Shown: piece after piece, positions 1,298 through 21,340 of the stretch
Numbering within the stretch: position 1 is the first letter of the stretch
Layout of the letters: each line of letters begins with the position of its first letter
Assembly: GCA_903902345.1 (NCBI GenBank)
Contig: CAIUUR010000219.1
Coordinates: 1-41,293 of the forward strand
Reading direction: 5' to 3'
Length of the DNA stretch: 41,293 nucleotides
Origin: an uncultured Geobacteraceae bacterium
GTDB lineage: Bacteria; Desulfobacterota; Desulfuromonadia; Geobacterales; CAIOGM01
Notes under the pieces: generated by a model
Database searches by the model: none
Told to the model about the DNA's origin: nothing
The model's input: only the letters and a program-made list of their open reading frames with translations
Position numbers and translations under genes: made by a program

Positions 1298-4200
1298 TTA
1301 AACTGACAGGGTCGGAGGCAACTGCTTCAGTCCTTCCAACACCGGCGTGAGGGTGGCTATAAGAACCTCCAGACAGTGTTCGATCTCATCCCGATCTTCC
1401 CGCTTCAGGGCCTGTTCCAGAGCATTGGCCGTAGCAGACACATCGGTAACCGCCAAGTTGGCCGCGACCCCTCGCAGGTCGTGAGCCATATGTCGCGCCA
1501 GCTCAAAATTTCCTGCCGTCACCGTTGCACACAGAATTGTCGACCCTTCGGACCACTCACTACGGAAAATCAGCAGTAACTCCTGAAGCAATTCCCGATT
1601 GCCCGCAAGCCGGACCAACCCCGCAGCCAGATCGATACCGGGAAGCGTTGCGGGTAATTCCGGGACAGAAATATCCTCTTCTGAGGGGGCTTCATCATGG
1701 CTGCGTGGCGCCAGCCACCGGGAAAGGACCGTCAACAGGGCCATAGGATCGATGGGCTTGGCGACGTGATCGTCCATACCGATTGCCAGACAGTGACGAC
1801 GAACGTCTTCCAGTGCGTGAGCGGTCATGGCGATGATCGGCAGATCGATAAGCCCCAGTTCATTCCGGATGATCCGGGTCAATTCGAAACCATCCATCTC
1901 CGGCATCTGAAGATCCGTAAGAACCACGGTGTAACGCCCGGGATCTGCGCGAAGGATTTCCAGCGCCGTGCGCCCATCACCGACAACCGTCACGGTCAGC
2001 CCGAAACCTTCGAGTATTTCCCGGGCCACCTGCTGGTTGATGTCGTTGTCTTCCACCAGCAGCGCCCGCGCCCTGGCCAAGGTGTGGTGCGTCGCTTCGA
2101 CGGTGGTTCCCGGTGCTCCCGAGGCAGGCAGGGCGGCGAACTCCTCACCGGCGTCAGAGGTATCCAGAGTAAACGGCAGAAGAACCGTAAAAATACTTCC
2201 GACACCGGGGGTGCTCTCAACATGGATATCCCCATCCATAAGGTCCACCAGTTTCCGGCTTATGGTCAGTCCCAGCCCGGTGCCTCCGTAGCGGCGGGTA
2301 GTGGAACTGTCGGCCTGGGAAAACGCCTCAAACAGCCGGGCCAACTGGGCCGGCAGGAGGCCGATACCGGTGTCTTGCACCGTGAAGCGGAGCCGGACCT
2401 GGTCGCCGGTTTGAGCCTCCGGCGTTACCGTGACGTTTACTTCACCCTGCTCCGTAAACTTGACGGCGTTGATGACCAGGTTGAGGAGAATCTGTCCCAG
2501 GCGGAGGGGATCACCCACCAGGCGACGCGGAACAGCCGGATCACGCCGGAAGAGCAGCGCTACCCCCTTATCCTCGGCCTTCAGATACACCATGGCTGAG
2601 ATCTTATCCAGCGTCGATTCCAGGCTGAAGGGGATCTGTTCCAGCTCCAGTCGATCCGCTTCGATCTTGGACAGATCCAGGATATCGTTGATGAGTCCCA
2701 GGAGTGACTGCCCCGAAATCCCGATCTTCTGGAGGTAATCCTGTTGTTGCGGCGTCAGATTTGTCCGGAGAGCCAGGTGGGTCAGGCCAATGACAGCATT
2801 CAGGGGGGTGCGAATCTCGTGGCTCATGTTGGCCAGGAACGCGCTCTTGGCAAGATTGGCAGCATCCGCCGCCTCCTTCGCCGTGGCCAGTTCCTCCTCG
2901 GCCTGCTTGCGTTCGGTAACGCTCCACACGGCCTCCATTAACAACGAGGTCTGGAGCATGTCGGTTTCGTCGTAATCGGTTTCCTTGTTTGCGATACCCA
3001 CCACGCCGATGATGCGGTTGCCGCGAAAAACGGGGATTGACATAAACTTTAACAGCTGAACATGACCTGGAGGGCACCCTTTTTTTAACGGATTGTCGGC
3101 TTGAACATCGTTGACCACAATCGGACGGCGTTGCCGGACGACTTCACCCCATAAACCGGTACGGTCCAACTCGTAGCACGTTTGGGGATTCGCCACGGCG
3201 CATTCCGGCATGACCTCCTTGGACCAGGTGTTGAGGACAAACTCCCTGCGATCTTCATGATAGTGGTAAATGTAGCCAAATTTGCTTTCAGTCAGTTGCA
3301 GCGCTTGCGCCAGGGCATAATCGAGAAATCCCTGTATGGTTTCGGCCGGATGCTGGAGGATATCAACCAACCGTTGCAAGCGGGCTTCGTTGCGCAGCAC
3401 CTCTTTTTCCGCCCGCTTCCGTTCACTGATGTCGCGCCAGGTGGTAAAGAGTGCCTCTTTCCCGTCCAGGCAAAGCGCCGCAATGGAAACCTCCACCAGG
3501 AATTCCGTGCCGTCCCGGCAGCGATGAACCCACTCAAAGTTGCAACTTCCGCGCTGCAAGGCCAGGTTTATCATTTCCCGAGACAGCGCCGCCGAGGTTC
3601 TGCCATCGGGCTGAAATTCGGGAGAGAGTCCGTCCGGCGCAAGACCGATAATCTCCCACCGGTCGGCTCGCAGCATAATTTCGGCGGCCTGGTTGCAGTC
3701 TACAAAAATACCGTCACAGATGATGAGATAGGCATCCGGCGAATCCATGAAGAGGATACGATATTTTTCTTCCTTTTCACGGAGCGCCGCCTCGCTACTC
3801 TCCCGCTGGGCGTTGCTCTTGCGCAGCGCCCCGGAGAGCCTGGCAAAACGGACCGCCACCAGAACAGCGATCAGCAGCAAAAGGGCAACGACGGCCACTA
3901 TACCATACAGCCAAGACAAATCATTGGGCTTGGGATCATAGAGAAAACCCTTCAGGTCGAAGCTCCGCTTCAGCATCCCCATGCCGGCATAGACTTCGGC
4001 GATGTTGCGCCACCGGCCCGGGTTCATATGGCCGACTTCTACAAGCTCCGTCTGGAGCAGGGGCGCCATCTGCCGGGCCTCGAACCGGAGGTGCTCCAGG
4101 GTGTGCCGCTTGCTGTAGCGGTTATAAATGAGCCGGGCCAGTTCCTCCTGATGCTGCATGGCGTACTCCCAACCCTTGAGACTCGCCTCCCGGAATTTTT

Positions 4201-4888
4201 TGACCAGCTCAGGCTTTTTCCGGACTAATTCCTCGGTGGTAAAGAGATTGTCGCCATAGAAATCGATCCCCACGGCCCGGGGTGAATAGAGAAGGTACTC
4301 CTGTCCGGCCGCCTCCAGGGCAAAGGGTTCATCGGTAACATAGACGGAAATAGCCTCCACTGCTCCCGAAAGCAACTCCTGAACGCCAAAGGAATGAGGC
4401 GACAGGGTGAACTTGTCTGAGGCGATCCCCTCGTTCTTCAGGTAGGCGTGGAGTTCCGCCGATCCGGGCTCGATCATGACCTTTTGGCCTGCCAGGTCAT
4501 GGATGCTCTGGACGCCGTGATGTTTCAGATTCATAAGCGCCAGGGGGGAGTGCTGGAAGATGGCCGCCAGGACCACCACCGGCGCCCCCTGTTCCCGTGA
4601 CAGCAGCAGTTCCGTGGAGCCTACGCCGAACTCGGCCTTCCCTTGCACAACCTGCCCCACCGGGTCCTCCCCCGGTCGGGCGGGAAGAATTTCCACCTCC
4701 AGTCCGGCGTTCCGGTAATACCCCTGTTCCTGGGCCGCATAGTAGCCGGCGAACTGGAACTGGTGCTGCCATTTCAGTTGCAGCCGCACCTTGTCGGCCC
4801 CCTGGGCGGTAAGGGGCATCAGGAAGAGCGCCACCAGCGCCAGGTAGCGATAGATCAGATTCATGGCAGGTTTTTTTTCACCATTCAC
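1298..4888 (-). CDS. Hybrid sensor histidine kinase: NMT1/THI5-like periplasmic sensor, PAS, GAF, HisKA, HATPase, receiver, Hpt
   Basis: This 1196-residue phosphorelay protein sits in the inner membrane. After a signal segment (MNLIYRYLALVALFL) comes an NMT1/SsuA-like solute-binding domain (about 34-320, LKWQHQFQFAGYYAA), one membrane helix (about 325-350), a short coiled coil, a PAS domain (about 378-495) and a GAF domain (about 512-670). The kinase core has the H-box SHEIRTPL near residue 698 and ATP-lid motifs DTGIGL and GGTGLGL. A receiver (VLTDLQMPEMDG) and a C-terminal Hpt domain (AHDLRGVAANL) complete an internal relay. NMT1 domains bind small molecules such as pyrimidine precursors or sulfonates; the ligand here is unknown. 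The GTG at 4888 overlaps the stop of the PEP-CTERM gene by GTGA, and an ATG at 4864 is an alternative start with a cleaner signal peptide. No DNA-binding output is present, so a partner regulator is expected. Confidence 0.9.
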   Translation of the reverse strand: MNGEKKPAMNLIYRYLALVALFLMPLTAQGADKVRLQLKWQHQFQFAGYYAAQEQGYYRNAGLEVEILPARPGEDPVGQVVQGKAEFGVGSTELLLSREQGAPVVVLAAIFQHSPLALMNLKHHGVQSIHDLAGQKVMIEPGSAELHAYLKNEGIASDKFTLSPHSFGVQELLSGAVEAISVYVTDEPFALEAAGQEYLLYSPRAVGIDFYGDNLFTTEELVRKKPELVKKFREASLKGWEYAMQHQEELARLIYNRYSKRHTLEHLRFEARQMAPLLQTELVEVGHMNPGRWRNIAEVYAGMGMLKRSFDLKGFLYDPKPNDLSWLYGIVAVVALLLLIAVLVAVRFARLSGALRKSNAQRESSEAALREKEEKYRILFMDSPDAYLIICDGIFVDCNQAAEIMLRADRWEIIGLAPDGLSPEFQPDGRTSAALSREMINLALQRGSCNFEWVHRCRDGTEFLVEVSIAALCLDGKEALFTTWRDISERKRAEKEVLRNEARLQRLVDILQHPAETIQGFLDYALAQALQLTESKFGYIYHYHEDRREFVLNTWSKEVMPECAVANPQTCYELDRTGLWGEVVRQRRPIVVNDVQADNPLKKGCPPGHVQLLKFMSIPVFRGNRIIGVVGIANKETDYDETDMLQTSLLMEAVWSVTERKQAEEELATAKEAADAANLAKSAFLANMSHEIRTPLNAVIGLTHLALRTNLTPQQQDYLQKIGISGQSLLGLINDILDLSKIEADRLELEQIPFSLESTLDKISAMVYLKAEDKGVALLFRRDPAVPRRLVGDPLRLGQILLNLVINAVKFTEQGEVNVTVTPEAQTGDQVRLRFTVQDTGIGLLPAQLARLFEAFSQADSSTTRRYGGTGLGLTISRKLVDLMDGDIHVESTPGVGSIFTVLLPFTLDTSDAGEEFAALPASGAPGTTVEATHHTLARARALLVEDNDINQQVAREILEGFGLTVTVVGDGRTALEILRADPGRYTVVLTDLQMPEMDGFELTRIIRNELGLIDLPIIAMTAHALEDVRRHCLAIGMDDHVAKPIDPMALLTVLSRWLAPRSHDEAPSEEDISVPELPATLPGIDLAAGLVRLAGNRELLQELLLIFRSEWSEGSTILCATVTAGNFELARHMAHDLRGVAANLAVTDVSATANALEQALKREDRDEIEHCLEVLIATLTPVLEGLKQLPPTLSV

Positions 4889-5535
4889 ACTCTTTTCACC
4901 ATTCTCTTCCGCGCATACCCCACCACCCCCAGGGAGATACAGAGAAGCGCATAGGTGGAAGGTTCGGGGACGGCGGTGGCGCCAACGCTGATTACGGCGT
5001 TTGAAGGGGGACTTCCGTAGCTAAGGTTGCCAAGAGTATCACTGCCAAAGACCAGTGTACCCTGAGCATCTCCCCCTATACCACTATTCAAATCAGAAGG
5101 GATGGGGGTAAGGGGATAAAAAAATGGATTAGGGGATGCACTGAGCGCGTCGAGATAGTTAGTTTGATTTATATCCACAGGTGCTATGCCTGCAGCATTT
5201 AGCGTGAACACACCGGGAACTATAGCGGAAAGAAGGATAACCGGCACCGTGCCGTTCAGAGGGGCGTGACCGGAAAGGGTCAAGGTATTTGTGGCTGCAT
5301 ACCACGCAATTGTCATTGGATCCTGCGTATCGGTAGCGAGCAGTGCTGTTGTGTCAAAGACGGCGTGCAGAGTGAAGAGAGTGTCGGCGCCCAGGGGGAT
5401 ATTGTTCAAGGTTGTGGTGCTGCTCAGGGTGCCGTTTATGTCAAGCACCATAACAGACGAATGGGCCGGAACTGCGACTGCCAGGGCAAGAACCAAGGTG
5501 AGCAGGGAAAGGAACGAGCTGAAACAGGTTTTCAT
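4885..5535 (-). CDS. PEP-CTERM sorting domain-containing protein
   Basis: A secreted protein of 216 residues. The ATG at 5535 has a strong ribosome site (AAGGAGA) and gives a clean signal peptide (MKTCFSSFLSLLTLVLALAV...AHS). The body is a low-complexity, Thr/Asn/Pro-rich beta-type sequence without a domain I recognise. The C-terminus is a complete PEP-CTERM signal: VPEPSTYALL, a hydrophobic helix, then YARKRM. Such signals are processed by exosortases, and an exosortase with EpsI lies at 32007-33475. The gene is 68 bp downstream of a second PEP-CTERM gene and overlaps the start of the hybrid kinase, so all three are probably co-transcribed. The last 79 bp of the sorting region are nearly identical to the neighbour's. 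Confidence 0.9.
   Translation of the reverse strand: MKTCFSSFLSLLTLVLALAVAVPAHSSVMVLDINGTLSSTTTLNNIPLGADTLFTLHAVFDTTALLATDTQDPMTIAWYAATNTLTLSGHAPLNGTVPVILLSAIVPGVFTLNAAGIAPVDINQTNYLDALSASPNPFFYPLTPIPSDLNSGIGGDAQGTLVFGSDTLGNLSYGSPPSNAVISVGATAVPEPSTYALLCISLGVVGYARKRMVKRV
4899..4977 (-). repeat. Sorting-signal repeat, copy A (3' end of PEP-CTERM gene)
   Basis: These 79 bp encode the PEP-CTERM tail (AVPEPSTYALL to YARKRM) and match 5627-5705 with a single mismatch, in the same orientation. The rest of the two genes shows no comparable similarity. Confidence 0.9.
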
Positions 5536-5603
5536 GATGAATTTTCTCCTTGAGTTCAGTATAGACGGCATTGAGAGTACATCTTCCCGGAACGACCGCT
5601 CCT

Positions 5604-6284
5604 TCACCCTTCGCACTCCTTGGACACCATTCTCTTCCGCGCATACCCCACCACCCCCAGGGAGAGACAGAGAAGCGCATAGGTGGAAGGTTCGGGGACG
5701 GCGGTTGTCTCGGTAACGTTAACCTGCATGATGAACGGCGACGATGTGTAAAAAGTAGGATCTGGTGCGGCAACAAGCCAATTCGCGCTCAGTCCGGGGC
5801 CACTGCCTGATGACGAATCCGTATAGCCCCATGTGACCGAATCTACTAGATTTGCCACATTACGATCAGTGGCTGCAAATGCGAGCAGCCAGTAGGTTGA
5901 GTTGGGGAGGAGTTGAATTGGATCGTTCATCGAAATCAGCGAAATCGGCGTCAGGCTTGTTGACAGTGGAGGCAGCGAGACTAACATGCCTTGCGGCGTA
6001 AACGTTGAATCCATCAAATAGAAGTAACCGAACGCATCGGCCGCAGGGTTGTCGACCCCTGGCCGGGCAAGAAGAGCGTTGACACTGTTGAGGGTATAGG
6101 AATGGTTATCAGTGAGAAATTGTTGTCCAAACAGACTTCCGGCAGCGACGCCACTGATCCGGGAACCATCCGTCTGTTGTGAAAGGTTATCGAACAGGAC
6201 ACTAGCGTGGACCGTAGTGGTCGGGGCCAGGGTGAGCGCCGTCAGGAGTAGCGCGGACAGTACTGCGGTGATGTTACTTTTCAT
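5604..6284 (-). CDS. PEP-CTERM sorting domain-containing protein
   Basis: An exported protein of 226 residues. The ATG at 6284 is preceded by AAGGAGA at good spacing and starts a typical signal peptide (MKSNITAVLSALLLTALTLA...VHAS). The mature part (SVLFDNLSQQTDG... NSTYWLLAFAATDRNVANLV) resembles the choice-of-anchor type beta-sandwich proteins common among PEP-CTERM substrates, but I cannot name a family. The end is VPEPSTYALLCLSLGVVGYA followed by RKRM, the exosortase signal. It is the first gene of the operon leading to the second PEP-CTERM gene and the hybrid kinase. A sigma-54 promoter lies 69 bp upstream of the start codon. Function is probably extracellular or envelope matrix, by analogy only. 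Confidence 0.9.
   Translation of the reverse strand: MKSNITAVLSALLLTALTLAPTTTVHASVLFDNLSQQTDGSRISGVAAGSLFGQQFLTDNHSYTLNSVNALLARPGVDNPAADAFGYFYLMDSTFTPQGMLVSLPPLSTSLTPISLISMNDPIQLLPNSTYWLLAFAATDRNVANLVDSVTWGYTDSSSGSGPGLSANWLVAAPDPTFYTSSPFIMQVNVTETTAVPEPSTYALLCLSLGVVGYARKRMVSKECEG
5627..5705 (-). repeat. Sorting-signal repeat, copy B (3' end of PEP-CTERM gene)
   Basis: Partner of 4899-4977: 79 bp with one mismatch, covering only the sorting signal of the upstream PEP-CTERM gene. Near-identity confined to the tail suggests recent copying or gene conversion of the signal between unrelated passengers. Confidence 0.9.
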
Positions 6285-6352
6285 GATTCTTCTCCTTGTG
6301 CTGAAGTAATACGTTTCGTTCCCGTAACAGAGAGGAACCGCAAGCAGCCTAA

Positions 6353-6368
6353 GGCAACAGTTGTGCCA
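6353..6368 (-). promoter_or_regulatory. Sigma-54 (-24/-12) promoter of the PEP-CTERM operon
   Basis: On the minus strand the sequence is TGGCACAACTGTTGCC, which fits TGGCAC-N5-TTGC with the exact 10-bp GG-to-GC spacing. It lies 69 bp upstream of the ATG at 6284, pointing at the PEP-CTERM genes. Sigma-54 promoters need an AAA+ activator bound further upstream. Sigma-54 control of PEP-CTERM genes through PrsK/PrsR is known in other bacteria. Confidence 0.85.
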
Positions 6369-6506
6369 TAACCGGGACCAAATGACGCTGCGCCGCGGAA
6401 ACATGGCGGAACACGAGACTGGAGGCACGTTTTCCCTCGAAAAATCAGGAACGGAGGGTAAGAACCGTAGAAAAATATCAGGAGGAGCTGGTGAGGCGGA
6501 GAAGGG

Positions 6507-6554
6507 ATGTTACGCCATGTTACATGGGTACGCCAAAATGTTGCAACATGTTAC
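6507..6554. promoter_or_regulatory. Helically phased ATGTTRC direct repeats, probable regulator-binding array
   Basis: ATGTTAC at 6507 and 6517, ATGTTGC at 6538 and ATGTTAC at 6548 begin 10, 21 and 10 bp apart, with a degenerate GGTAC at 6527 filling the gap. All units therefore fall on one face of the helix. The array is about 140-190 bp upstream of the sigma-54 promoter, a normal enhancer distance, and about 60 bp past the stop codon of the OmpR-type regulator at 6617. It could bind a sigma-54 activator or that regulator. The remaining sequence in 6285-6616 holds no gene. Confidence 0.6.
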
Positions 6555-6616
6555 ACATTCTTATGCCCGAAAAAACCAATAAAATCAGGTTTTTGGTGAT
6601 TTAACGCAGTGGTCCG

Positions 6617-7312
6617 TCAAATGACGTGCAGGGGTGCGGCGAAGAGGAAACCGACTCCCGACACGGTTTGCAACGGCAGGACGCTCCCGGTCTGCTCCTG
6701 ATACCGGGAGCGGAACCGGGAAACGATGACATCCAGCGCCCGGGAAGAGGGCTCTTCGGCCTTGTCATAGACGGCGTTGAGGATGGTCTCCTTTGCCACG
6801 GGTTCCCCTCGAGATGCGGCCAGCGCCGCCAGGATGCGGTACTCCTTCTGACTCAGCCGAAAATGTCGCCCGTCGGGGGTAACAAGCCGCCAGGCGGCCC
6901 GCTCCAGCAGCCAGCTATGGGAAGCGATTGCCTGCGGTGGGGGACTCCGGGCGACAATACTCATGATGGCTGCGGCCAGTTCTTCAATATCCACCGGTTT
7001 GACCAGATAGAGATCGGCACCCGCATGGTATCCCTTCACCCGATCGGCCAGAGCGGTGCGGGCCGTGAGAATGATGATTTTTACCGCGGTATTTTCACGA
7101 AGATAGGCGACAAGATCATAGCCGCTCAGATCGGGTAACCCCAGGTCCACGATGGCGACGGCAAAGTTCTGTCGGCTGAGAGCCTGGTAAAACTCTATCC
7201 CGCTGCCGACGCCGGTAACCGGCAGACAGTGAATGGCCAGGGACTCGGCAATGGTCTCGCGCAGGTCCTGGTCGTCTTCCACCAGAAGGATATGTGGCTT
7301 GGGGGTGGACAT
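6617..7312 (-). CDS. OmpR/PhoB-family response regulator
   Basis: A 231-residue DNA-binding regulator. The receiver domain (1-120) has the acidic pocket VEDD, the phosphoacceptor D56 in VDLGLPDLSG, the conserved T (ILTART) and the K of KPVD. The C-terminal half (about 135-228) is a winged helix-turn-helix: LSQKEYRILAAL, then RALDVIVSRFRSRY and TVSGVGFLF. ATG at 7312 with GGAGG seven bases upstream. The stop of the partner kinase gene at 7325 is 12 bp away, so the two form an operon. OmpR-family proteins typically bind direct repeats about one helical turn apart, as seen at 6507-6554 just beyond this gene. Confidence 0.93.
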   Translation of the reverse strand: MSTPKPHILLVEDDQDLRETIAESLAIHCLPVTGVGSGIEFYQALSRQNFAVAIVDLGLPDLSGYDLVAYLRENTAVKIIILTARTALADRVKGYHAGADLYLVKPVDIEELAAAIMSIVARSPPPQAIASHSWLLERAAWRLVTPDGRHFRLSQKEYRILAALAASRGEPVAKETILNAVYDKAEEPSSRALDVIVSRFRSRYQEQTGSVLPLQTVSGVGFLFAAPLHVI

Positions 7313-7324
7313 GCAACCTCCGTG

Positions 7325-9364
7325 TCAATTGTCAACTGTCTTCAGGAATACTCTGACGATGGTTCCCTGGGGGACATTATCCTCCAGCGTGATCGTACCG
7401 CCGTGCTCTTCGATTATCCGCTTCACCAGCCAGAGCCCCACACCGAAGCCGCTGGTCCCCACACTGGCGCTGCCGCGATGAAATTTCTCGAAGATTCGCT
7501 GCCGATCGGCGGGGGGAATGCCTGGTCCCTGATCCCTTATTTCAAGGATCATGCCGGAAGTTCCGGACCGGACCTCCATTTCTATGGGGGTATCGGGGGG
7601 AGAGTATTTTACGGCATTGGCCGCCAGGTTTATGAAGGCGGTGCGAAGCAGGATATGATCTCCCAGAATCGGCACGGCAACCCCACCCGAGGTGACGGTG
7701 ACCATCCGTTCGGGAAAAAGATCGTGGGTCTCCGCGGCGATATGCTCCAGCATTGCCTGCAGGTTCAGCGGCTGTAAATCCAGTTTCGGCAATGTATCGC
7801 GTAATCGGGAATGTTCCAGGGTATTGTCGAAAATTTCCAGCATCCGCCGGGCGCCGCGCCGGATCTTGGCCAGTGGCCCCAGCAGCGGGCTGTCAGGCTC
7901 CACCCCATAATGATCGATTATCTGGAGATTACCGCTGATAATGGCAAGAGGAGTCCGATACTCATGGGAAACCATATCCAGGAACCGGCTCTCATGCTCC
8001 AATGCCTGTTGTTTTTCGGCCAGAGCCTGTTCCAGTTCCCCCTGTTTGACGATCAACTCCCGGGTCCGCTCCTCGGCCAACTCCGAAGCCCTGGCCTCGG
8101 CCTGCAGGGTTACCGAGAGAAGTTGTTCGCGAGAGACATGAAGCCGTTGTACCAGGGCCATGGTGAGCAGCACCGCCTGGAACAGCATCCCGAAGATATA
8201 GGCGTTGGTGCTGACCCAGGTGGAAGGGATAAGCCCCAGCACCGCCAGGATTCGGGGAACGGCCGGAATCAGGACTACCGTGAACCCCAGCATGAGGAGG
8301 AGGCCGCCGGGTGTCCGGCGACGGAGTTGAGCGACGGCCAGGAAGGGGGTCAGGCAGGCCAGCAGCAGGTAGCAGACGGCCATGAGCGGCGCCATCCGGT
8401 TATAGACGTCAAAGGGGATGCAGGCGGCGGTGACTCCCCCCACCAGGATATTCCCCTGGAGATACCGATGGAACCAGGGATACCTCGTCCTGGTGGCAAA
8501 GAGGTGCATGACAAAGAGGCTGAAGGCGCCGACCCCCAGGCAAGCGCCGCCCCCCACGAGATAGTCGTTGACGTGGTGGGCGCCGGCAGGCCAGAGAACG
8601 AAGAGCGCTCCATCCAGCCCCACCTGGCGGAGCAGGTTGGAAAGGATATAGAGGGTGCAGTAACCGAACTCCCTGCTGCGTAACAGAGCCGCATAGTAGC
8701 TGTTGGCGATGACCACCAGCAGAATCACCCCCAGGAGGAGCCCCATGACGAGGGAATATTTCCCGGACCAGGCAAAAAACTCTTTTTTAGGGTAGATCCA
8801 CCCCTGCAGATTATGGGTGCTGGAGGTTCTTACCCGGATCCAGACCGTACGCGCCGCTGGTGAACCGGCCGGCGGGAGCGGAACCGTCATGTCGAGAACC
8901 TGAAGGGGGCGGCCGGCCATGGGGAAGTGATCCCCCAGTTGATATTCGCGGTATGAGGCGGGAGACCGGGGGTCCGCTCCTTCCTGGACATAGACCCTGA
9001 CATCGTCGAGAAACGCGGGAACAAGGCGGAGGTAATATTCAGCGGGATCGCCGTCCGGCGTGTCATAGGAAAAACGGGTCCAACTGGCCCCGGCGAGATA
9101 GCCGAGATTGAGAAATCCGGGGAGCTTCTTGAACCGCCGATCCGGAGTTCCCAGCAGATCGCCCAGGGTCAGGGCGCCCCCCTGATCCACCAGATTTTCC
9201 AGATGGCCCGCCAGGGGGAGGGAATGAAACGTATTCAGGAGCAACGGCGCGGCGTCCGCCGCCGGAACTGACGCCTGGAGCAGACAGAACAGCGCCAGAG
9301 CTGAAAAAATCCGGAGTACAACTGATCGGCGACAATGCCGGTCCATGAAAACCACCCTGTTCAT
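7325..9364 (-). CDS. Sensor histidine kinase with 7TMR-DISM extracellular and 7TM domains
   Basis: A 679-residue membrane kinase. After a signal peptide (ending VPAADAA) comes a periplasmic 7TMR-DISMED2-like beta domain (about 40-185, ASWTRFSYDTPDGDPAEYYL). Seven membrane helices follow (about 205-395), then a short coiled coil rich in E/Q, the HisKA H-box SHEYRTPL, and a HATPase domain with NLAANAVKY, DQGPGIP and GFGVGLWLV. DISM domains are thought to bind carbohydrate-like or other small ligands. It pairs with the OmpR-type regulator immediately downstream and is preceded 14 bp upstream by an FAH-family gene. The ATG at 9364 has a poor ribosome site; M7 at 9346 follows AGGGTGG and is a reasonable alternative. 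Confidence 0.92.
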   Translation of the reverse strand: MNRVVFMDRHCRRSVVLRIFSALALFCLLQASVPAADAAPLLLNTFHSLPLAGHLENLVDQGGALTLGDLLGTPDRRFKKLPGFLNLGYLAGASWTRFSYDTPDGDPAEYYLRLVPAFLDDVRVYVQEGADPRSPASYREYQLGDHFPMAGRPLQVLDMTVPLPPAGSPAARTVWIRVRTSSTHNLQGWIYPKKEFFAWSGKYSLVMGLLLGVILLVVIANSYYAALLRSREFGYCTLYILSNLLRQVGLDGALFVLWPAGAHHVNDYLVGGGACLGVGAFSLFVMHLFATRTRYPWFHRYLQGNILVGGVTAACIPFDVYNRMAPLMAVCYLLLACLTPFLAVAQLRRRTPGGLLLMLGFTVVLIPAVPRILAVLGLIPSTWVSTNAYIFGMLFQAVLLTMALVQRLHVSREQLLSVTLQAEARASELAEERTRELIVKQGELEQALAEKQQALEHESRFLDMVSHEYRTPLAIISGNLQIIDHYGVEPDSPLLGPLAKIRRGARRMLEIFDNTLEHSRLRDTLPKLDLQPLNLQAMLEHIAAETHDLFPERMVTVTSGGVAVPILGDHILLRTAFINLAANAVKYSPPDTPIEMEVRSGTSGMILEIRDQGPGIPPADRQRIFEKFHRGSASVGTSGFGVGLWLVKRIIEEHGGTITLEDNVPQGTIVRVFLKTVDN

Positions 9365-19918: not shown

Positions 19919-21340
19919 ATGGAACGAAGCAGGATTCTGGTGGTGGATGATGAAGCAGTAATCCGTGAAGGGGTAAAGCGGATACTGGAGCGGAACGGCA
20001 TGGACGTTACCGCCAACTCCGGCGGCCGCGCCGCCCTGGCAACCATTCAGGAGACGGACTTCGACCTGGTGGTCACCGACCTGAAAATGCCGGGGATGAA
20101 CGGCATCGAGCTCCTCAAGGCAATCAAGATCCTCCAGCCCGAGGTGCCGGTCATCATTATCACGGGCTATTCCACGGTGGACACCGCCGTGGAGGCGATG
20201 AAGAGCGGAGCCTTTGATTACATCGCCAAGCCGTTCACCCCGGAACAACTCACCGAGAAGGTCGCCAAGGCCCTGGCGCAAAAAGAAGCTGTCACCGAGA
20301 ATCTCCTCCTTAAAAAAGAGCTGAAGGAACACCACGGATTCGACCTCTTCGTGGGAGAAAGCAAGGAGATGCAGAAGATCTACCGGCGGATCCTTCAGGT
20401 AGCCCCCACGGACAGCACCGTCCTCATCACCGGGGAGAGCGGCACCGGCAAGGAGGTGGTGGCCCGGGCCATCCACCGCAACAGCCCCCGCCGGGACGAC
20501 CCCTTCGTGGCTGTGGACTGCACCTCCCTGGCGGAAAACCTCCTGGAGAGCGAACTTTTCGGCCACATCAAGGGCTCCTTCACCGGCGCCATCCAGAGCA
20601 AGACCGGCCTCTTCAAGGTGGCCGACGGCGGCACCCTCTTCCTGGATGAGGTGGCCAACATCTCCCTCACGACACAGGCGAAACTCCTTCGGGTCCTTCA
20701 AGAGCGGGAGATCACCCCCATCGGCGGGACCCATGGGGTGAAGATCGATATCCGCTTGGTCGCCGCCACCAACAAGAATCTCCGGATTTTGGTGGAAGAG
20801 GGTAAATTCCGGGAGGATCTGGTCTTCCGGCTGAACATCATTCCCATCGACCTTCCACCGCTGCGTGAGCGGAAAGGGGATCTCCCCCTCCTCATCACCC
20901 ACTTCCTTCAGAAGTTCGCCACCTCCATGGGGAGGGAACTGTACGGACTCTCCGCCGAAGCAAGAACGTTTCTGGAAAACTACGCTTTTCCCGGCAATGT
21001 GCGGGAGGTGGAGAACATCATCGAGCGGGCGGTGGTTCTGGCCGAGGGAAACCTGATCCAGCTGGAGGACCTGGAGTTGGGGCATGCCTGTGTCCTGAAA
21101 CCCCGGAGTCAACAGACGGAAAACCTTCCCCCTGCCACTCTGGAAGAGTTAAAGGAAGCCAAGCGTCTCATCCGGGAGAAGGCCCTGGAGGAGGTGGAGA
21201 AGGCTTTTGTGGTGGCGGCTCTGGAACGAAACCATGGGAACATCACCCGGGCCGCCGAAGAAACGGGGATGCTCCGCCCCAACTTTCAGGCGCTCATCAA
21301 GAAACTGGGGATCTCGGGACGGGATTATGCCGACGGGTAA
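19919..21340 (+). CDS. NtrC-family sigma-54-dependent response regulator
   Basis: 473 residues from the ATG at 19919 (GAGG seven bases upstream; an ATG at 19907 has no site). Receiver domain with D54 in VVTDLKMPGMNG and the K of AKPF; AAA+ domain with Walker A GESGTGKE (172-179), the sigma-54 contact loop as GSFTGA (219-224) rather than GAFTGA, Walker B GGTLFLDE, and an arginine-finger region (FREDLVFRLNIIPI). The C-terminus is a Fis-type helix-turn-helix (GNITRAAEETGMLRPNFQAL). It has no kinase beside it and is followed after 10 bp by recO. It is one candidate activator for sigma-54 promoters such as that at 6353-6368, without direct evidence. Confidence 0.94.
   Translation: MERSRILVVDDEAVIREGVKRILERNGMDVTANSGGRAALATIQETDFDLVVTDLKMPGMNGIELLKAIKILQPEVPVIIITGYSTVDTAVEAMKSGAFDYIAKPFTPEQLTEKVAKALAQKEAVTENLLLKKELKEHHGFDLFVGESKEMQKIYRRILQVAPTDSTVLITGESGTGKEVVARAIHRNSPRRDDPFVAVDCTSLAENLLESELFGHIKGSFTGAIQSKTGLFKVADGGTLFLDEVANISLTTQAKLLRVLQEREITPIGGTHGVKIDIRLVAATNKNLRILVEEGKFREDLVFRLNIIPIDLPPLRERKGDLPLLITHFLQKFATSMGRELYGLSAEARTFLENYAFPGNVREVENIIERAVVLAEGNLIQLEDLELGHACVLKPRSQQTENLPPATLEELKEAKRLIREKALEEVEKAFVVAALERNHGNITRAAEETGMLRPNFQALIKKLGISGRDYADG

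Follow-up and report, generated by a model that had tools for sequence, protein, structure and literature searches.

The window, by which we mean the whole analysed stretch of 41,293 nucleotides, carries an array of short direct repeats between the gene for an OmpR-type response regulator and two genes for PEP-CTERM proteins. On the minus strand the order is a 7TMR-DISM kinase, the OmpR-type regulator, the array, a sigma-54-like site, PEP-CTERM gene 1, PEP-CTERM gene 2 and an NMT1-PAS-GAF hybrid kinase. The individual features, with the basis of each assignment, are as follows:

7325..9364, minus strand: 7TMR-DISM sensor histidine kinase, presumed partner of the regulator, with a 12-bp intergenic gap (domain profiles)
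6617..7312, minus strand: OmpR-type response regulator (Response_reg and Trans_reg_C), proposed binder of the array (domain profiles)
6545..6554, minus strand: array unit 1, GTAACATGTT (plus strand ATGTTAC; repeat match, shuffle test)
6535..6544, minus strand: array unit 2, GCAACATTTT (plus strand ATGTTGC; repeat match, shuffle test)
6514..6523, minus strand: array unit 3, GTAACATGGC (plus strand ATGTTAC; repeat match, shuffle test)
6504..6513, minus strand: array unit 4, GTAACATCCC (plus strand ATGTTAC; repeat match, shuffle test)
6472..6479, minus strand: candidate sigma-70-type -10 element, GATATT at 6479-6474 or TATTTT at 6477-6472 (family alignment only)
6400..6413, plus strand: imperfect inverted array copy, AACATGGCGGAACA, 14 bp, 93% identical to 6508-6521 (sequence comparison)
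6354..6368, minus strand: sigma-54-like element, TGGCACAACTGTTGC (TGGCAC-N5-TTGC), of uncertain function (10/10 consensus match)
5604..6284, minus strand: PEP-CTERM gene 1, with a choice-of-anchor R domain and PEP-CTERM (domain profiles)
4885..5535, minus strand: PEP-CTERM gene 2 (domain profiles; start codon picked by signal peptide)
1298..4888, minus strand: NMT1/PAS/GAF hybrid histidine kinase, overlapping the end of PEP-CTERM gene 2 (domain profiles)

The regulator (6617-7312) scores above cut-off for both PF00072 and PF00486, giving a receiver followed by Trans_reg_C, and reaches no equivalog cut-off among the NCBIfam models; its closest solved relative by sequence is BasR/PmrA (PDB 4s04 and 8jo2). 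A search for a terminator hairpin in the gap between regulator and array gave nothing clearly better than shuffled sequence. The hybrid kinase (1298-4888) possibly forms one operon with the PEP-CTERM genes. Proteins similar to this NMT1/THI5-domain sensor kinase, the last in the window operon, are encoded directly 3' of two class-level regulator homologs (L249 and L250), which suggests a functional tie between such sensors and the regulator family.

The stop codon of the OmpR-type gene lies 62 bp before the start of the array, which in coding-strand orientation runs GTAACATGTT-GCAACATTTT-(11 bp)-GTAACATGGC-GTAACATCCC. The original prediction had placed ATGTTRC units at 6507, 6517, 6538 and 6548, with steps of 10, 21 and 10 bp, and a re-check of the sequence found every coordinate right; the promoter presumed to be the target does carry direct repeats of about 10 bp. 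Intergenic DNA often contains short repeats, and those seen here might have arisen by chance or be structural, with no regulatory role. Against this, GYAACAT occurs four times in the 331-bp intergenic region (mean 0.03 and maximum 2 in 20,000 mononucleotide shuffles), and across the genome of 4.9 Mb ATGTTRC-N3-ATGTTRC is matched perfectly only twice, each time inside the array, compared with none for the reversed control. As the same architecture also appears at other loci and in other species, repeats without a role are very hard to credit.

The closest homolog of the regulator (60% identity; L102 in genome G001) is followed by four GCAACAT units at offsets 64, 74, 84 and 94, in exact 10-bp steps, and then by a PEP-CTERM gene whose protein belongs to another family and is not orthologous to that of the window. 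A similar array before a gene of a different PEP-CTERM family indicates that the array goes with the regulator and not with the target sequence. The repeats, whose absence upstream of the operon in close relatives was to have counted against the original prediction, are therefore present in this one. The comparison was extended to 41 distinct regulator homologs, mostly from the same order together with Chlorobi and a few others, using 220 bp 3' of each stop codon. Self-similarity in these leaders had a mean Z of 1.55 at period 10 and 0.88 at period 20, and of at most 0.43 at the other periods from 4 to 25; for 11 distant OmpR controls the mean Z at period 10 was 0.02. Unit sequence also co-varies with similarity of the DNA-binding domain (r = 0.46, 0/5000 permutations), as it does for pairs under 50% identity (r = 0.35, 1/5000 permutations), on units picked by eye and with values inflated by the relatedness of the members. 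A possible helix code, in which Arg or Gln at position 10 of the helix goes with a pyrimidine at position 3 of the unit (17/17 versus 0/11), was set aside, being suggestive and not significant once redundant members are removed.

Eight class-level homologs from outside the order, for which the prediction had been fixed in advance, gave a mean Z of 0.16 at period 10 and one clear array (L251), with no recurrence of the site in the other seven; two of the eight are directly followed by an NMT1-type kinase gene instead. Given this held-out failure, the claim is limited to the order and some Chlorobi, where regulator and site do recur together; the architecture does not extend to the protein family as a whole. 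In the rest of the order, the gene that follows mostly codes for a protein that is secreted or located at the surface (TPS/ESPR exoproteins, DUF4347 giant adhesins, and OmpA-like and ShlB-type proteins), apart from a few exceptions such as kinases and unknowns.

Within the genome itself, 6 of the 14 OmpR-type winged-helix proteins are encoded directly upstream of a PEP-CTERM gene, a class that makes up about 1% of genes. Three are response regulators (C219, C290 and C40), and three are longer proteins whose match is confined to the winged helix (C126, C306 and C414); the C126 protein is PAS-PAS-winged helix, the PAS domains having been checked for C126. These one-component proteins (G000:C126:1894-3039, also L048; C306:14142-14459; C414:43636-43953) have their own 10-11-bp repeats. 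At C306 two tandem PEP-CTERM genes each have their own copy of one array, at equal spacing to GATAGT; in another species of the genus, an ortholog with an identical recognition helix has kept both array and targets, repeating this arrangement. One further PEP-CTERM gene, at a contig edge (C432), has a seventh array in front of it. C40 is an exception in having no array; there the regulator runs directly into a shortened PEP-CTERM frame (G000:C40:3849-4854), as if by a deletion or a join made in assembly. A poor array at C478 precedes a collagen-like gene. The paralogous regulator of that locus (G000:C478, 3889-4554; L077) is followed by the collagen-like secreted protein; the element here, TGTTACAT/TGTAAC, is shorter, and a sigma-54-like site (9/10) lies 353 bp past the regulator, a layout that resembles the window.

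Taken jointly, these comparisons make it likely that the array is bound by the OmpR-type regulator whose gene lies immediately upstream, itself one of a family of adjacent-acting regulators. The original prediction had offered this regulator as one of two candidate owners of the array, and the evidence across homologs favours it. A point against this assignment is the perfect sigma-54 element, which stands closer to the PEP-CTERM genes than the array does. From the pattern of regulator, array and target, the PEP-CTERM genes here seem to be controlled apart from the sigma-54/PrsR system.

The other candidate was a sigma-54 activator. Control of PEP-CTERM genes through PrsK/PrsR and sigma-54 has been described in other bacteria (Haft 2006, PMC1569441; Aquincola pepA, PMC9850573; D. 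vulgaris, PMC3333781). The presumed PrsR site is a box of 17 nt whose last bases are TTTACA and which lies upstream of the sigma-54 motif by 32-92 nt, on average 63 (PMC1569441); DAP-chip of the D. vulgaris PrsR homolog DVUA0057 later showed enrichment of the five predicted targets (PMC3333781). Under this explanation the array would be the upstream site of PrsR or another NtrC-type activator driving TGGCAC-N5-TTGC, with the units read as two dyads. The perfect element lies 69 bp from the PEP-CTERM start codon, as in PrsR promoters; the genome encodes PrsR (C12:22737-24089; 679 bits against a cut-off of 502.6) and has about 24 further matches with a sigma-54 activator domain; and the units coincidentally make two 17-bp pseudo-dyads (TGT-N11-ACA), equal in length to the PrsR box. 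However, PrsR boxes in this genome are readily recognised elsewhere, the TGTCGG-N5-TTTACA box or a one- or two-base variant of it preceding at least seven PEP-CTERM genes (C552, C159 with two genes, C232, C333, C153 and C161), several of which then show a good sigma-54 site. A model built from boxes in this genome scored at best 1.0 in the intergenic region of the window, compared with 24.8-30.6 at the boxes used to build it, and a PrsR box within the window was rejected. The nearer ATGTTRC unit starts 139 bp upstream of the -24 element, outside the published range. Two NtrC-type dyads were likewise rejected, since the array of the closest relative is purely direct; the 17-bp pseudo-dyads do not recur there, and dyad symmetry is not kept in the direct repeats of L102 and L118. 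Furthermore, the leader of the closest relative contains no sigma-54 site scoring 7 or more, and the array tracks the OmpR-type regulator even in one-component versions without sigma-54 sites. Ownership by a sigma-54 activator is accordingly improbable, and the earlier proposal, in which the array acts on the sigma-54 promoter, is probably wrong.

A different promoter is suggested by the family alignment. When 22 members were anchored on the last, by-eye unit, similarity to TATAAT peaked at an offset of 27-29 (3.82 of 6 against a mean of 2.68; 0/500 shuffles), a value that relatedness among the members again inflates. A -10-like hexamer at 27-29 bp past the last unit would fit an activator placed directly against a weak -35. 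The candidates in the window are weak and lie 24-26 bp past the last unit, 2-4 bp off the family peak, and a plain sigma-70 consensus scan of 4700-7400 found nothing at the expected place. The array probably drives a sigma-70-type promoter near 6479-6472.

Whether the sigma-54-like element is real is a separate matter. As originally predicted, a perfect -24(GG)/-12(GC) motif points at the PEP-CTERM genes (6368-6354, minus strand). A perfect match alone is weak evidence, because the genome holds 13 such sites against 9 for the reversed pattern; from the same genomic density, about 4e-4 would be expected in this region and strand, which makes the element more likely to be real. The lack of a sigma-54 site in the leader of the closest relative, together with the lack of a known activator box, counts against it; a conserved site was also looked for before related PEP-CTERM genes of the genus and was absent, and good sites in the 41 family leaders are otherwise at chance level. 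Judged on sequence, the chances that the element is real appear near even.

If it is real, two inputs may meet at this locus, with the OmpR-type regulator acting from the array on a promoter of its own while another activator serves the sigma-54 promoter. The inverted array copy (6400-6413) lies 31 bp upstream of the -24, just 5' of it, and would then be a candidate point of cross-talk coupling the two. OmpR-type regulators have no AAA+ domain, so that a real sigma-54 promoter would need a separate NtrC-type activator. An NtrC-type sigma-54 activator gene is present in the window at 19934-21313 (404 bits against the PrsR model, below its cut-off), and it is possible that its product serves the site. 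The perfect, well-placed element and the nearby inverted copy speak for two inputs, whereas the absence of the element from the closest relative, the near-parity with the reversed control and the unrecognised activator box speak against; we regard this arrangement as a tentative addition, somewhat short of an even chance. It adds to the binding of the array by the adjacent regulator and is not mutually exclusive with it.

In the preferred mechanism, that of the adjacent OmpR-type regulator, the 7TMR-DISM kinase (7325-9364) would phosphorylate the regulator (6617-7312), whose molecules would then line up head to tail along the 10-bp GYAACAT units, which form two pairs on the same helical face. 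Bound regulator would recruit RNA polymerase to the weak sigma-70-type promoter, and both PEP-CTERM genes, perhaps also the downstream hybrid kinase, would be expressed. The sigma-54-like site 139 bp further down would be either a second promoter with another activator or a chance match. The wider family would comprise two-component and one-component PAS-winged-helix forms, each beside a surface-protein gene with its own 10-bp direct repeat. The comparisons above show where the array lies, its periodicity, how it co-varies with the regulator and what class of gene is the target, while phosphorylation, binding, activation as opposed to repression, and the promoter used are what we infer from them.

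Control of PEP-CTERM (exosortase) proteins has so far been described via PrsK/PrsR and sigma-54, and the present findings suggest that there is a second route, with a dedicated sensor and regulator for individual surface-protein genes; this would be consistent with single surface proteins being switched on independently of one another. In its fullest form, the proposal is that a local OmpR-type family with privately diverged 10-bp repeats constitutes a PrsR-independent layer of PEP-CTERM control that meets a real sigma-54 promoter at this locus; we hold this whole to be possible, with the balance leaning against it. If true, two unrelated activation systems feed one operon here. The approximately 28 matched pairs of regulator and repeat could also serve to examine how recognition helices of the OmpR type select the DNA they bind.

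Literature searches for a link between OmpR-type regulators and PEP-CTERM proteins found, within the collection of papers covered, no description of the regulator family of the window. The PrsK/PrsR-sigma-54 system shares with the window its PEP-CTERM targets and a sigma-54-like element about as far from the gene; the window differs in the missing PrsR box, in spacing and in an adjacent regulator from a different family, which lacks an AAA+ domain. In Rubrivivax gelatinosus, EmbRS/BmfRS is likewise a two-component control of the biofilm matrix, and BmfS has a 7TM sensor, but BmfR is LuxR-type, for which reason the system was rejected as a precedent, and the parts of the report consulted describe no adjacent PEP-CTERM target or repeat array (PMC3684757). 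The proteobacterial dedicated sortase two-component system (TIGR03785) similarly ties a kinase-regulator pair to surface-protein sorting, whereas the kinase of the window scores 73 bits against its cut-off of 612 and the sorting system differs. The OmpR/PhoB-family regulators with direct-repeat sites of about 10-11 bp resemble the window in the receiver and C-terminal winged helix, in head-to-tail direct repeats upstream of a -10 and in an adjacent partner kinase gene. Unlike in that family at large, neighbouring paralogs here have repeat units that differ from one another, each regulator is linked to a single surface-protein gene beside it, and PAS sensors replace the receiver in some.
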